A DNA stretch of 52,821 nt, taken from positions 1 to 52,821 of the forward strand of contig CALXBE010000014.1 in the NCBI GenBank assembly GCA_944386495.1, written 5' to 3'. Numbering within the stretch: the first letter of the stretch is position 1; each line of letters opens with the position of its first letter. Positions 31,025-37,102 of the stretch are shown here, in pieces. Position numbers and translations under genes: made by a program. This stretch comes from an uncultured Gemmiger sp. Lineage in GTDB: Bacteria > Bacillota > Clostridia > Oscillospirales > Ruminococcaceae. The notes beneath the pieces are model-generated. The model did no database searches. It had not been told where the DNA came from and was given only the letters and a program-made list of their open reading frames with translations.

Positions 31025-31924
31025 GTGGAATATGCACTGAAGGAAATCCAGGGGGACAGCCGTGCGGTGCCCCAGCTGGTATTCAATCAGCTTCAGCGGG
31101 CAGATGGAGACTCTGTACGGGCCGCCCTCTACCTGGTTGCGGGGGGAAGCACTGACCCCAAACAGATGGCCCGGGAACTGAGACTGAAAAGTGTCCGAGC
31201 GGCGGAAAATATTCTTCAGTTCTGGGCAGGGGCGGGGCTCCTGGAGCCTAAAAACGCTCCCTGCCTGGAGGAGCCTGCCCCGGTATTAGACACCCGCCAA
31301 ATCAATCTGGCGGCCATGCGGGACCCCATGGTGGCCACCCTTATGGAGGAGGTCCAGGCCCACTTTGGAAAAATTCTCAGTCACAGTGAAATGCAGCGGC
31401 TGGCAGGGCTGTACCTTCAGGAAGAATATCCCTTGGATGTGATTCTGATTTGCTGCGCCTACCTGGCGCAGAGCGGGAAACGGACGGTGGCCCGGCTGGG
31501 CAGCGAGCTGGCCCGGTGGCGGGAAAATGGAGTGGAAACCGGGGAACAGGCAGAGAGATATCTGGTCCTGCTGGAGCGGCGGAGAAAAGAGGAGGAGGCT
31601 GTTGCCCCCCTCTTTGGAATAACGCCCCAGGATCTGACCCTGGCCCAGAAGCGTTCTATTTACAGCTGGTTTGAGGATTGGAATTTCTCCCTGCCTATGA
31701 TTCGGGAGGCTCTGGTCCACGCTGAGGATAAAAATACCATCCGGTATGTAAACGGGATTCTTCGCTCCTGGCACAGCCAGGGATATACCCAGCCTTCCCA
31801 GGTACAGGGATCGGGTGTATTGCAGGGCAGCAATATTACCTCTACCGCTGCACAGCCCACCCAGGCATCCAGCTCCATTCAGGCAATGTTCAGTCAGGAC
31901 TGGAACCAGGCTTTTGAGGACTAA
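31025..31924 (+). CDS. DnaD-domain replication initiation protein
   Basis: 299 residues from GTG 31025, which has GGGAGGG 6 nt upstream; the longer frame from 30932 runs through the promoter. The N-terminus (~1-80) is a winged-helix-like segment (MARELRLKSVRAAENILQFW). The C-terminal half has two DnaB_2/DnaD-type helical repeats, the second ending IRYVNGILRSWHSQGY, the signature YxxxILxxW. DnaD proteins remodel DNA and recruit the helicase loader at origins or restart sites. The divergent dnaI-like gene is the expected partner. Confidence 0.85.
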   Translation: MEYALKEIQGDSRAVPQLVFNQLQRADGDSVRAALYLVAGGSTDPKQMARELRLKSVRAAENILQFWAGAGLLEPKNAPCLEEPAPVLDTRQINLAAMRDPMVATLMEEVQAHFGKILSHSEMQRLAGLYLQEEYPLDVILICCAYLAQSGKRTVARLGSELARWRENGVETGEQAERYLVLLERRRKEEEAVAPLFGITPQDLTLAQKRSIYSWFEDWNFSLPMIREALVHAEDKNTIRYVNGILRSWHSQGYTQPSQVQGSGVLQGSNITSTAAQPTQASSSIQAMFSQDWNQAFED

Positions 31925-31938
31925 AGGAGGAACAGAGA

Positions 31939-32325
31939 ATGCTGGAACTGGAAAAGCTGCCGGTTTATCTCTACTTCAAAAACGGAAACACCTACTCCGG
32001 CGCCCATGAGGGCATGCGGTATCAGATTCGTCAGGGAGGCAGACCGGACCCGGATGACCCGTCAGGAAAGAAAAAAATCCCTTACCTGGAGGTTCGGGCC
32101 TGGCCGGAACCCTGGAGCATTGAACACACCGACCCCGCCAAAATTTCCACCCGGGAATTTTCTCCCGACCTGGCGGGGCTGGAACAGGGGGTGAATTGGC
32201 TCAAGGAACTGCTGATCTCCCGCCGGGAGGATTGGGAGAATATTCCCTCCATCCTGGATTGTCAGCCCTGGAGACCGGCTCCTGAACCGGAGGAGACAGA
32301 AAAAGACACCCCGCCTTGGGAATAA
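31939..32325 (+). CDS. conserved-looking small protein, function unknown
   Basis: 128 residues, soluble, with no signal peptide or membrane segment. Aromatic-rich N-terminus (PVYLYFKNGNTYSG), a central Lys/Pro loop (SGKKKIPYLEVRAWPEPWS) and a Pro/Glu-rich tail. AAAGGAGG lies 8 nt before ATG, and the gene follows the DnaD gene after 14 nt, so the two are cotranscribed. I recognise no domain; a replication link is suggested only by position. Confidence 0.7.
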   Translation: MLELEKLPVYLYFKNGNTYSGAHEGMRYQIRQGGRPDPDDPSGKKKIPYLEVRAWPEPWSIEHTDPAKISTREFSPDLAGLEQGVNWLKELLISRREDWENIPSILDCQPWRPAPEPEETEKDTPPWE

Positions 32326-32362
32326 AAAAAGAATGCCCACCGGTTGTGCGGACCGGTGGGCA
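32322..32362 (-). terminator. intrinsic terminator of the small-RNA candidate
   Basis: TGCCCACCGGT (32334-32344) pairs perfectly with ACCGGTGGGCA (32352-32362). The reverse strand continues TTCTTTTTTTATT. The + strand has no T-run after the hairpin, so it does not serve the upstream + gene well. Confidence 0.8.
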
Positions 32363-32423
32363 CCAAGGAAAGAGGGAAAGATAAGAAAGATGCTAGGCAT
32401 CTGCAAATTAGCGTTTTCTCATT
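32322..32423 (-). ncRNA. candidate trans-acting small RNA, ~100 nt, CU-rich
   Basis: The reverse strand holds a full small-RNA gene and no reading frame of substance. A promoter (32430-32458) gives a predicted 5' end near 32423. A hairpin AGATGC-CTA-GCATCT lies at 32388-32402. A 25-nt unpaired pyrimidine tract (32363-32387) includes UUUCCCUCUUUCC. A perfect intrinsic terminator ends at a T-run. The C/U-rich loop could pair with AAAGGAAG-like ribosome sites, as FsrA/RoxS-type RNAs do. It is divergent from a LysR gene with overlapping promoters. There is no expression proof. Confidence 0.55.
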
Positions 32424-32450
32424 GACTTCATTATACCGCAGGAGTACAAT
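32422..32450 (+). promoter_or_regulatory. promoter of the LysR gene
   Basis: TTGACT (32422-32427), a 17-nt spacer, and TACAAT (32445-32450). It overlaps the reverse promoter completely, so only one can be occupied at a time. Confidence 0.75.
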
Positions 32451-32458
32451 TTAGTAAA
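32430..32458 (-). promoter_or_regulatory. promoter of the small-RNA candidate
   Basis: Reverse strand: TTTACT (32453-32458), a 17-nt spacer, and a perfect TATAAT (32430-32435). Confidence 0.65.
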
Positions 32459-32479
32459 ACGCTTTATTTTCAGGTCAAA

Positions 32480-32496
32480 GGTGAAATAAATTCACC
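32480..32496. promoter_or_regulatory. putative LysR box
   Basis: GGTGAA-ATAAA-TTCACC is a perfect dyad containing the T-N11-A core of LysR-type sites. It lies in the leader of the LysR gene, downstream of its -10, where binding would repress. Confidence 0.5.
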
Positions 32497-32518
32497 ACAT
32501 GGAGGAGGGGGAGCGGTT

Positions 32519-33391
32519 ATGACCTTACTGGATTATCAGGTGTTTTGGGAGATCAGTCACCTGGGCAGCTTTGCCGCCGCAGCCAAAAAGCTCCATCTGA
32601 CCCCTTCGGCCATCAGCCACGCAGTAGCCGGAATGGAGCGGGAATGTGGATTCAGCCTGTTTCAAAGAGCCAAGAACGGCGTTTCTTTGACCAGCGGAGG
32701 GCGGAGGCTTCTGCCCGCAGCCCAGCAGGTACTGGCCAGCCAGGAATCCTTTCGCCAGACCCTGGAGGAAATCAACGGACTTGCCCGGGGCCATGTGTCC
32801 ATCGGCACCTTCAACAGTGTCTGCACCACCTGGCTGCCGCCTCTGATAAAACTGTTCCGGAGCAGGAATCCCGGAATACAGGTGGAAGTTTATCAGGGAA
32901 GCTATCAGGATGTGGCCAACTGGCTGAAAGAAGGTGTAGTGGACCTGGGAATCTTGTCCGAAGATGCAGCTGCGGAATTCCAGTTTACCCCTCTCAGCCG
33001 GGATAAATTGGTCTGTGTGGTGCCGGACAATTTCACTCCCGCAGCGGGGGACCATATCCAGGTGGAGGAACTGGAAGGACAGCCTTTTGTCCTGCAAAGT
33101 TCAGGCTCCAATGTGGATATCCGGGACTTCTTCAAACGACATCATATGGAGCTTCAGGTCAGCTGCCATGTGCAGGATGACCAGGCCTGTATTGCTCTGG
33201 TGGAGAGCGGGCTGGGGATCTGTGTGGTCCCGGAACTGGTTCTGAAATGCTTCGCCCGGCCTATCCGGGCCTATCCCATCCGACCGGAGGAGTACCGGGT
33301 CATTGGCTTGGCAGTGATGGCCGGGACCACCCTGACCCCCGCAGCCCGGGAACTGAGCAAGGCTATCTGTTCCGTGGGAGAGCTGTCATAA
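32519..33391 (+). CDS. LysR-family transcriptional regulator
   Basis: 290 residues. The N-terminal winged HTH (3-62) shows SFAAAAKKLHLTPSAISHAVAGME. The periplasmic-binding-like effector domain (~90-290) includes IGTFNSVCTTWLPPLI and VPELVLKCF. GGAGGAGGGGG precedes ATG. No metabolic gene is divergent from it; the only divergent unit is the small-RNA candidate, suggesting a regulator/small-RNA pair like OxyR/oxyS in layout. The effector is unknown. Confidence 0.93.
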   Translation: MTLLDYQVFWEISHLGSFAAAAKKLHLTPSAISHAVAGMERECGFSLFQRAKNGVSLTSGGRRLLPAAQQVLASQESFRQTLEEINGLARGHVSIGTFNSVCTTWLPPLIKLFRSRNPGIQVEVYQGSYQDVANWLKEGVVDLGILSEDAAAEFQFTPLSRDKLVCVVPDNFTPAAGDHIQVEELEGQPFVLQSSGSNVDIRDFFKRHHMELQVSCHVQDDQACIALVESGLGICVVPELVLKCFARPIRAYPIRPEEYRVIGLAVMAGTTLTPAARELSKAICSVGELS

Positions 33392-33401
33392 AAACTTTAT
33401 C

Positions 33402-34441: not shown

Positions 34442-35131
34442 TCAATGGGCTGCCTGATTGGCCAAAGCTGCTTTGTCCAGCAGCTTGAAGCTGCTCTTGT
34501 ACAGTTCAATGAGTCCCTCGTTCTGCATCCGGTTCAGTTCCCGGCTGAGAGCGCTTCGCTCGCAGTTGAGATAATCAGCCAGCCCTGCCCGGTTGAGGGT
34601 GATGGAGAAAGTATCTTTTCCCTGGCGGGCCGCTTCGTCCAGCAGCCAGGTGCAGAGCTTGGCCCTGAGACTTTTCAAAATCAGAAGGTCAACTCTCCGG
34701 TTGAGGGCAAAATATTTCTCGCTGATGGTGGCTACCAGATTCTGCATAAGCTGGTTGTGGCTGTAATGAAGGGAATGGCAGGGATGGATGATTTTCTGGT
34801 AAGGGAAGAAGACTGCTTTGCAGTCGGTGCGGGCCAGAATGGTCACCGGACTTTTCAGGGAACTGCCGCTGAGCACATCCCCGAAAATGTCCCCGGCGCT
34901 CAGATGGGTGATAAGGACCTCGGCACCGTCGGGAGTGTTTTTGATTCCGTCTGCCTGACCTTCCAGAATGATTCCAATGTCGTGGCTTTCATATCCGAAC
35001 AGAAGCAGAATCTCGCCTTTGCGGAAGGTTTTTACCTGAGGACGGAAGCATTGGAGCAATTCCTCAAGCCCCTGCAGGGAAATTCCCCGGAACAGGCTGG
35101 TAGACATGAGTATAGGATAATATTCCTCCAA
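34442..35131 (-). CDS. Crp/Fnr-family transcriptional regulator
   Basis: 229 residues from TTG 35131, which has GAGGAGGGG at 5 nt; upstream ATG 35179 has no ribosome site and lies inside the promoter. The N-terminal cyclic-nucleotide-binding-like beta-roll (~10-120) is followed by a dimer helix and a C-terminal HTH with CERSALSRELNRM as recognition helix. Its Glu/Ser/Arg pattern recalls FNR-type readers of TTG half-sites. The N-terminal cysteine cluster of FNR is missing, so this is not a classical oxygen sensor. Two GTTGC-N4-GCAAC palindromes upstream are the likely binding sites. Confidence 0.88.
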   Translation of the reverse strand: MEEYYPILMSTSLFRGISLQGLEELLQCFRPQVKTFRKGEILLLFGYESHDIGIILEGQADGIKNTPDGAEVLITHLSAGDIFGDVLSGSSLKSPVTILARTDCKAVFFPYQKIIHPCHSLHYSHNQLMQNLVATISEKYFALNRRVDLLILKSLRAKLCTWLLDEAARQGKDTFSITLNRAGLADYLNCERSALSRELNRMQNEGLIELYKSSFKLLDKAALANQAAH

Positions 35132-35152
35132 AAAGACCCCTCCTCTATGATT

Positions 35153-35166
35153 GTTGCCTAAGCAAC
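35153..35166. promoter_or_regulatory. Crp/Fnr-type operator, site 1
   Basis: GTTGC-CTAA-GCAAC has the 5-4-5 spacing of Crp/Fnr sites. It lies about +6 to +19 of the predicted regulator transcript, a repression position. Confidence 0.6.
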
Positions 35167-35177
35167 GGACTGAATTC

Positions 35178-35206
35178 ATTATACTCTAAAATATCTGGAA
35201 ATACAA
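35178..35206 (-). promoter_or_regulatory. promoter of the Crp/Fnr-glycosyltransferase operon
   Basis: Reverse strand: TTGTAT (35201-35206), a 17-nt spacer, and TATAAT (35178-35183). Predicted +1 is near 35171. Confidence 0.72.
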
Positions 35207-35225
35207 GGGAATCTGTTTTTCTGCC

Positions 35226-35239
35226 GTTGCGGCGGCAAC
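35226..35239. promoter_or_regulatory. Crp/Fnr-type operator, site 2
   Basis: GTTGC-GGCG-GCAAC has the same arms and spacing as site 1. Its centre (35232.5) is 41.5 nt upstream of the predicted ABC-operon start (class II activator position) and 61.5 nt upstream of the predicted regulator start. Confidence 0.65.
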
Positions 35240-35267
35240 TGACAGAAAATCTAAAGGAAGATAGAAT
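35239..35267 (+). promoter_or_regulatory. promoter of the ABC-transporter operon
   Basis: CTGACA (35239-35244), a 17-nt spacer, and TAGAAT (35262-35267). The -35 box touches operator site 2. Confidence 0.65.
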
Positions 35268-35325
35268 AAAAAGGTCTTGATATGATTATTTCCATCTGAG
35301 GATGGATGAAAGGAAGAAAAGAATC

Positions 35326-36363
35326 ATGAAAAAAGTACTCTCTCTTTTGCTGGCCCTGACCCTTTGTCTGGGGCTGGCTGCCTGCACAGCCCAACAGGAA
35401 CAGACTCCCCCGGCGGCGGAACAGACCCCCGCAGTGGAAGAACCTGTCCAGGAGACCGAGGCTGACCCGGTCACCTGCCGTATTGCGGGCCTGAAAGGTC
35501 CTACCACTATGGGCCTGGTCAACCTGATGAAGAAGGCCGAGGAAGGCCAGACCCAGCAGGCATATGAATTCAGCGTTTACGGAACTGCCGATGAGATCCT
35601 GCCTCTTCTCCTTCAGGGAGAACTGGATGTGGCAGCCATCCCTGCCAACCTGGCTTCCACCCTCTACGCCAAGACAGAGGGACAGATTCAGGCTATGGCA
35701 GTGAACACCCTGGGGGTGTTGTATGTAGTGACCACCGATGACTCCATCCAGTCCCTGGAGGACCTGAAAGGCCGGACTGTTCTCAGCACCGGAAAGGGAA
35801 CTACTCCTGAATACCTGTTCCGGTATCTTCTCAACCAGGCGGGAATTGACCCGGACAAGGACCTGACCCTGGATTACAAGAGCGAGGCCACCGAGGTGGT
35901 GGCTGCCATGCAGGCAGACAGCAGCTATCCTGTTGCCGTCCTGCCCCAGCCCTATGTGACTGCTGCACAGGCTCAGATGGAAAACCTGCGGGTGGCAATC
36001 AGCCTGACCGATGAATGGAACAAGTACAGCGAGAATCCCCTGATTACCGGTGTGACTGTGGTCCGGGCCGAGTTTGCCCAGGAGCATCCTGAGGTGATGG
36101 AGGCTCTGGCGGCCGACTACAAGGCCAGCGTGGAAGCTGCCTGCAATGACCTGGAGACCACTGCTGCCCTCTGCGAGGAGTACGGTATCGTTGCCAGCGC
36201 AGCCATTGCCCAGAAGGCTCTGCCCGCCTGCAACATTGTCTATATGGACGGGGAAGAAATGAAGGAAGCCCTGGAATTCTATCTCCAGGTCCTCTATGAT
36301 GCAGATCCTGCCAGCGTGGGAGGCGCCCTGCCCGGGGACGATTTCTACCTTGCAGCTTCTTAA
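35326..36363 (+). CDS. ABC transporter substrate-binding lipoprotein (NMT1/SsuA/ThiY-like)
   Basis: 345 residues from ATG 35326, chosen over ATG 35302 because AGGAAG is 9 nt upstream. The signal peptide ends in lipobox LAAC (Cys20), followed by a Gln/Pro/Glu linker and a type II binding-protein fold: RIAGLKGPTTMGLV, LLLQGELDVAAIPANLAS, SLEDLKGRTVLSTGKGT. Family members bind sulfonates, nitrate, thiamine precursors or similar small ligands, and the ligand here cannot be read. It is first gene of a three-gene importer under the putative Crp/Fnr site. Confidence 0.87.
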   Translation: MKKVLSLLLALTLCLGLAACTAQQEQTPPAAEQTPAVEEPVQETEADPVTCRIAGLKGPTTMGLVNLMKKAEEGQTQQAYEFSVYGTADEILPLLLQGELDVAAIPANLASTLYAKTEGQIQAMAVNTLGVLYVVTTDDSIQSLEDLKGRTVLSTGKGTTPEYLFRYLLNQAGIDPDKDLTLDYKSEATEVVAAMQADSSYPVAVLPQPYVTAAQAQMENLRVAISLTDEWNKYSENPLITGVTVVRAEFAQEHPEVMEALAADYKASVEAACNDLETTAALCEEYGIVASAAIAQKALPACNIVYMDGEEMKEALEFYLQVLYDADPASVGGALPGDDFYLAAS

Positions 36364-37102
36364 AAAGGCCTGGCCGGTCCTTTTCTGGGTGGCAGTATGG
36401 CAGCTGCTGGCCCTGGTGATTGGGCATACCATTCTCCTGCCGGGACCCTGGGAGGTGCTGAAAGCACTGGTGGAGCTGGCGCCTCAGGGTGAGTTCTGGG
36501 GCAGAATCGGATACAGCGGACTGAGGATTCTGTCGGGATTCTTTTTGGGCCTGACAGCAGCCGCAGCCCTGGCGGGCATCAACCATTGGCTGCCCTGGAC
36601 CGAGCAGTTCACCCGCCCTCCTCTCCAGTTTATCAAGGCGGCGCCGGTGGCGGGCTTTATCATCCTGGCCCTGCTTTGGGTGGGGAGCCGGAACCTGGCA
36701 GTGCTGATCAGTTTTCTCATGGTACTGCCGGTTTTGTACGGCGCTATCCGGGGAGGAATGGAAAAGGTGGACCGGCAGCTGCTGGAAATGGCCCGGGTGT
36801 ATGGGCTGCCTTTGTCCCGGCAGCTGGTCCATATCTGGCTGCCCGGGCTGCTGCCTTCTTTCCGGCAGGGATGCGGGGTGGCGCTGGGCCTTTGCTGGAA
36901 AAGCGGCATCGCCGCGGAAGTCATCGGACTGCCCCCCGGAAGCATGGGGGATGCCCTCTATCAGGCCAAAATCACCCTGAATATCCCCCAGGTGTTTGCC
37001 TGGACCCTGGTGATCATCCTGATTTCCTTTGCCTTTGAGAAGGGAGTTCTCTGGATTTTGGACCGGGTGACTGCCCCCTTTGCAATGGAGGTAAGAGGAT
37101 GA
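36350..37102 (+). CDS. ABC transporter permease (SsuC/TauC/ThiX-like)
   Basis: About 250 residues with six membrane helices and a BPD_transp_1 domain, including the EAA loop (MARVYGLPLSRQLVHIWLPG). The start is uncertain. TTG 36350, 14 nt inside the preceding gene, puts the first helix near the N-terminus as in relatives; ATG 36296 would add 18 polar residues lying over the binding-protein gene. It ends overlapping the ATPase gene by 4 nt. Confidence 0.87.
   Translation: MQLLKKAWPVLFWVAVWQLLALVIGHTILLPGPWEVLKALVELAPQGEFWGRIGYSGLRILSGFFLGLTAAAALAGINHWLPWTEQFTRPPLQFIKAAPVAGFIILALLWVGSRNLAVLISFLMVLPVLYGAIRGGMEKVDRQLLEMARVYGLPLSRQLVHIWLPGLLPSFRQGCGVALGLCWKSGIAAEVIGLPPGSMGDALYQAKITLNIPQVFAWTLVIILISFAFEKGVLWILDRVTAPFAMEVRG

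Follow-up and report, generated by a model that had tools for sequence, protein, structure and literature searches.

The window analysed here, a stretch of 52,821 nucleotides from an uncultured Gemmiger sp. that forms part of genome G000 (81% complete), holds what is probably a two-gene module, in which a LysR-type regulator controls a divergently encoded small RNA that would in turn damp the translation of other genes. The unit by which the module is recognized consists of a LysR-type dyad, overlapping divergent promoters, a CU-rich tract, an intrinsic terminator and, usually, a 5' hairpin. It lies upstream of a LysR gene at 36/36 loci from two genera, namely the window, the sister genome G002 and 34 genomes of g55, all of which were examined. 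Sequence comparison supports the unit, the geometry of its putative sites and the constraint acting on it, and the small RNA apparently represents a real and new family. If transcribed, it would span no fewer than 36 species-level genomes, mostly of uncultured Clostridia; Rfam has no family for it, and its upstream regulator can be read. The LysR-divergent small-RNA layout itself is already described, in the GcvA/GcvB system of enterobacteria and their relatives.

The regulator, a protein of 290 residues encoded on the plus strand (32519..33391), has the Pfam HTH_1 and LysR substrate-binding (LysR_substrate) domains that place it in the LysR family. Its promoter, TTGACT-17-TACAAT (32422..32450, plus strand), overlaps that of the small RNA, TTTACT-17-TATAAT (32430..32458, minus strand), and each matches the consensus at 10/12 positions. 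The small RNA, which we infer to be transcribed, would be about 100 nt long (32324..32423, minus strand), with its 5' end assumed 6 nt past the -10 box and its 3' end predicted within a minus-strand T-run at 32324-32330. From sequence and predicted fold, it would begin with a hairpin, AGATGC-CTA-GCATCT (32388..32402, minus strand), continue into the CU tract UCUUUCCCUCUUUCCUU (32365..32381, minus strand) and end in a terminator hairpin (32332..32364, minus strand) with a stem of 13 pairs, the loop CCGCACA at 32345-32351 and CTTTTTTT directly 3' of the stem. The minus-strand promoter, short hairpin and perfect terminator with T-run from which the earlier note predicted an RNA of this length are present as it described them. 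The CU tract is unpaired in the predicted fold; its longest pure pyrimidine run is 17 nt, not the 25 nt given in the note. In the lysR leader lies the dyad IR1, TGAA-N5-TTCA (32482..32494, both strands), whose core, TGA-N7-TCA, is narrower than the dyad at 32480-32496 noticed at first. Relative to the predicted transcript starts it is centred near -65 of the small RNA and near +32 of lysR, and a second half-site, IR2 (TGAA, 32469..32472, minus strand), stands 22 bp from the IR1 half-site. An inverted repeat, AGCGTTTT at 32410-32417 and AAAACGCT at 32456-32463, flanks both promoters and is retained in G002.

Because a 5-kb scan returned an excess of promoter-like sites (9 versus 2.1 expected) and terminator-like sites (12 versus 6.0 expected), single elements of either kind are not decisive. 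What is decisive is the combination of elements and its conservation, rather than any lone element. The window and G002 differ by only 2 substitutions over the 139 bp that reach from the T-run to a point just beyond the -35 box of the small RNA. By comparison, third positions changed at 94/290 in lysR (Fisher p 3e-16) and at 28/128 in the upstream ORF (p 5e-8), and the 56-bp lysR leader has 10 substitutions and 6 gap columns (p 3e-5 for the substitutions alone). Flanking genes differ among the 20 loci viewed for neighbours (18 of the 36 plus two of g82), and the LysR gene and the small RNA stay paired in both genera. The neighbours include an Rce1-like protease, the 128-aa ORF found in the window and, at some loci, proteins that we take from their sequences to be PHP-like and L31-like.

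Both promoters recur throughout. That of the small RNA, TTTACT-17-TA(T/G)NNT, is found at 36/36 loci (one stricter pattern skipped L038), with the -10 variants TATGAT (24 loci), TATCAT (5), TATAAT (2), TAGAAT (2) and TATTAT, TATAGT and TATACT (1 each). The lysR promoter, TTGACT and TA(C/T)ANT with a spacer of 16-18, is likewise present at all 36 and overlaps it. The proposal that the two share the same 37 bp, and so compete, is borne out for the overlap; the offset of 37 bp is particular to the window's genus, and in g55 it is 45 bp (32 loci), 46 bp (1) or 48 bp (1). The distance from TGA-N7-TCA to TTTACT is exactly 36 bp at 36/36 loci (with the complete TGAA-N5-TTCA dyad at 28/36), unlike the spacing from the start codon to the -35 box, which varies from 54 to 117. 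Since the former is constant while the latter varies, the dyad is taken to belong to the promoters. A TGAA half-site at +22 from the IR1 half-site is also universal; further TGAA half-sites at offsets 13-35 occur only at +31 (19/36, the window not among them) and +15 (1/36). Relative to the small RNA, the site centres fall near -65, -43 and -34, with the 5' end predicted 6 nt after the -10 box.

These positions have close counterparts in Escherichia coli. According to passages of PMC5002191, the inverted repeats of gcvA-gcvB are centred at -65 and -43 of gcvB and those of oxyR-oxyS at -66, -44 and -35 of oxyS, and both GcvA and OxyR repress themselves while activating the divergent small RNA. 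A passage of PMC1557403 puts the activation of gcvB by GcvA at about 400-fold. The predicted site spacing here, 0/+22 at every locus and +31 at 19/36, agrees with both sets of values, and because of this likeness the dyad is best read as a LysR activation site for the small RNA. By sequence and by analogy, then, it is very probable that the LysR protein activates the small RNA. As far as the GcvA/GcvB passages describe that system, the locus shares its layout: LysR and a small RNA (here predicted) are encoded divergently from overlapping promoters, with candidate sites for the regulator at about -65 and -43 from the predicted 5' end. Autorepression and activation are known there and would apply here by extension. 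The resemblance to OxyR/oxyS drawn in the earlier note was apt, and the spacing makes it exact and extends it to gcvA-gcvB. The agreement suggests that LysR/small-RNA pairs have come to this promoter logic on more than one occasion, and the invariant spacings of 36 bp and 22 bp make control by LysR directly testable.

GcvB is GU-rich and about twice as long as the RNA described here, which is CU-rich; OxyS, at about 100 nt, is of similar length. The covariance models of both found no match at the gathering score or at E values up to 10, and no relation in RNA sequence to OxyS was seen. The LysR protein scores 73.6 bits against the NCBIfam GcvA model (cut-off 288), and among the best 25 of 52 NCBIfam models none reaches its cut-off. 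An Rfam scan of the window gave only two tRNAs at the gathering score, and a permissive scan of 32300-32530 (E up to 10) gave sub-threshold matches only. The best of these, RybB (23 bits, gathering 40) and suhB (19.6 bits, gathering 41), were far below threshold and were rejected. Eight g55 loci are similarly without an Rfam match in the small-RNA region.

For the 102-nt strand the predicted fold has an energy of -34 kcal/mol (z = -5.2), which 0/200 shuffles equal. In 36/36 transcripts the longest stretch of pyrimidines spans 10-19 nt (median 15), against a median of 6 in random 95-nt windows, of which 2.9% have a run of at least 12. A 5' hairpin is usual, formed in most other species by a different stem at the same place; L052 has almost none. 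At L038 and L043, two tandem hairpins sharing the GCACA loop precede the T-run, a pattern that a duplication of the terminator would give. MAFFT followed by RNAalifold on all 36 transcripts gave no consensus pairs, a failure that we think is due to stems of unequal length shifted by the aligner. Because the whole-set alignment yielded no consensus pair, pairs were counted on sub-alignments, with the loci sorted by eye into groups A-E. The first, A2, comprises 21 of the 23 loci with a 7-nt-loop terminator (20 distinct sequences; the bulged L014 and L057 were excluded). Here 93.6% of cells are paired, 40 cells are changed on both sides, and the covariation score of 0.578 exceeds the shuffled value of 0.253 (0/500 as high) and those obtained on sliding the alignment (at most 0.214), although pairs showing two-sided change (7) are no more numerous than in shuffles (153/500). 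The second, A3, takes in all 13 loci of the other terminator type (8 distinct) and is weaker, with 84.1% of cells paired and a covariation score matched by 28/500 shuffles. The third, A4, holds 7/8 of the group-C 5' hairpins (L032 excluded), with 95.7% of cells paired and two two-sided changes among seven sequences. Thus, most terminator stems covary, and the expectation of covariance across relatives held for the A2 terminators, only weakly for A3, and not for an alignment of the whole transcript.

These elements can be assembled into a mechanism. LysR dimers would bind IR1, the recognition site near -65, and with inducer would also occupy sites near -43 and, at 19/36 loci, near -34. The small-RNA promoter would then be switched on and lysR, with its overlapping promoter, repressed. 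The RNA would stop at its own intrinsic terminator and expose the unpaired CU-rich tract, flanked in most cases by two hairpins; pairing of the tract with purine-rich ribosome-binding sites would lower translation of the target mRNAs. This last step is, on balance, the favoured role of the tract, and is drawn from analogy with C-rich small RNAs of other Firmicutes. In passages of PMC4409812, RoxS is described as pairing with a ribosome-binding site through one unpaired C-rich region; RoxS stands under the ResDE two-component system, FsrA belongs to the Fur regulon, and CsfG is linked to sporulation. So far as those passages go, unpaired C-rich regions are common to RoxS/RsaE, FsrA, CsfG and the present RNA as a functional analogy only; the latter differs from them in its divergent LysR gene, its mixed CU tract and the lack of an Rfam match, including to RoxS/RsaE and FsrA where Rfam holds a model.

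In a search for targets, reverse complements of the CU tract had 24 matches in eight group-C genomes (8 being the own locus) versus 26 for a reversed control, and 126 matches in G000 and G002 (2 being the own locus) versus 53. The twofold excess in the latter may reflect no more than purine-rich ribosome sites and coding bias. Predicted pairing to sampled ribosome sites averaged -10.5 in group A versus -10.4 (sd 0.55) for shuffles of the same composition, and -8.7 versus -8.0 (sd 0.52) in group C. Pairing of the tract with ribosome sites is thus easy yet unspecific, and the tract is generically anti-Shine-Dalgarno. Two genes stand out as candidates, those of G000 and G002 being taken from the 30 matches with loci. 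In argB of G311 and G314, 17/18 positions pair, up to the start codon, at -24.4 kcal/mol, which would rank second of 157 sampled starts, but the gene was selected by the same search. For ilvB, the values are -24.0 in G002 and -19.6 in G000, the latter placing it only in the top 5% of 230 sampled starts; since IlvB was unmatched in 32 g55 genomes at 1e-140, there is no ilvB comparison in that genus. Both are candidate targets only and were rejected as proof.

The generic anti-Shine-Dalgarno character of the tract would also suit an RNA that is real yet works by way of a protein or of the ribosome, its CU tract, GCACA loops or both sequestering an RNA-binding protein or mimicking the anti-Shine-Dalgarno tail. 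This alternative, which fares best of those considered, is nevertheless unlikely. It draws on the GCACA element, which all 36 transcripts have on the 3' side of the CU tract (in the terminator loop where aligned) and 23/36 a second time on its 5' side, and on the loop columns, which are invariant (CCGCACA-like) while the stem varies. On the other hand, the same loop occurs in unrelated terminator-like hairpins, one in G002 and one in G064, and may be a local style of terminator, and the 5' GCACA is missing in 13/36 transcripts, including that of the window. The motif GGYCCGCACANCC is rare elsewhere, with seven matches in five genomes, three of them the small RNA itself; the second terminator type falls outside this pattern. 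A more ambitious extension of the preferred module, to which we assign a slightly lower chance, joins several of these strands: an independent GcvB-like global regulator of Clostridia, in which an amino-acid-sensing LysR would drive the CU-rich RNA, a lineage-specific tract would shut the ribosome sites of biosynthesis genes (argB being the candidate in group C and ilvB in the window's genus), and the GCACA loops would dock an undescribed RNA-binding partner.

One could also suppose that the arrangement acts only in cis, the minus-strand promoter and terminator interfering with lysR transcription and the short RNA being a by-product. Bidirectional promoters are common in bacteria, and the overlap at all 36 loci fits this idea; a conserved CU tract and a covarying terminator would, however, be superfluous for interference, and the low divergence between the window and G002 spans the entire transcript, so that we hold it improbable. 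Far less credible is a small peptide encoded by the RNA: short ATG frames exist in some species (such as MPATHIA... at some group-B loci), but the listed frames differ from group to group, and 10/36 transcripts list none longer than five residues, a count in which L033 and L048 stand in shortened form. Equally implausible is a chance promoter beside a terminator that in truth belongs to the plus-strand operon upstream. The hairpin does lie immediately behind the 128-aa ORF, but its T-run is on the minus strand, the unit persists beside other upstream neighbours, and its conservation at 36/36 loci contradicts chance.

LysR relatives at E <= 1e-40 were found in 23/297 genomes of the family, the closest beyond the window's genus being those of g55 and g82 (43-45% identical). 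In g55 the LysR was found in 34/35 genomes, all but G306 (88% complete). A sample of 394 genomes of the order, which is thin and does not list the g55 genomes, added only G772 at 1e-58 (35% identical). Among the three genomes of the window's genus, the intergenic region was matched in G000 and G002 and unmatched in G001 (77% complete). The model R1, built on the whole-set MAFFT alignment and hence on sequence only, gave a single strong copy per genome in 10 g1/g55 genomes out of 18 scanned, none in G001, and otherwise matches with E >= 0.0049. Under stricter filters, 10 of 396 family genomes passed 1e-4, nine of them g1/g55 and the tenth G064. In G064 the match fell on a terminator-like hairpin close to a tRNA-like sequence, where the listed frames include no LysR, and it was not counted; a match of the intergenic region in G119 lies inside a coding frame and was set aside as chance. 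Beyond the two genera, R1 matched none of 19 LysR loci, only the two positive controls supplied with them, and a megablast of 31900-33400 against a plasmid collection gave none.

It had been expected that promoter, CU tract and terminator would be conserved wherever the LysR is; all 36 loci agree, and three g82 relatives (43-45% identical) do not. The latter keep the dyad, two of them (L015 and L016) with the +22 half-site, while TTTACT-17-TATGAT and the terminator were not seen in them and the small RNA is absent. Since the dyad can persist without the small RNA, sites alone do not prove small-RNA control. At one g82 locus, L016, a Holin_SPP1 gene lies directly upstream, and L015 has similar letters there; an insertion may thus have removed the small RNA from these two loci.

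Among the open-access titles searched (subscription papers being outside the scope) there was no LysR-divergent small RNA for Clostridia or Firmicutes, and nothing relevant on structured RNAs of Ruminococcaceae/Oscillospira relatives or on Faecalibacterium small RNAs; the titles on C-rich small RNAs concern mostly Bacilli and Staphylococci. The earlier view that the combination is undescribed must therefore yield for the layout, known from GcvA/GcvB, and stands in this literature for the RNA itself and for a Clostridia pair.

The gene next upstream of the unit, on the plus strand (31939..32325), encodes a conserved protein of 128 residues from a family without a name, which has no match in Pfam or NCBIfam. 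As 61/110 aligned residues are identical to the protein at the same place in L014, of the other genus, common descent of the block with its counterpart there is suggested. The gene adjoins a DnaD-like gene, and the family appears small. Further along the window, at 34442-37102, a Crp/Fnr-like regulator is divergent from an ABC transporter comprising a phosphonate/NMT1-like binding protein and a permease.
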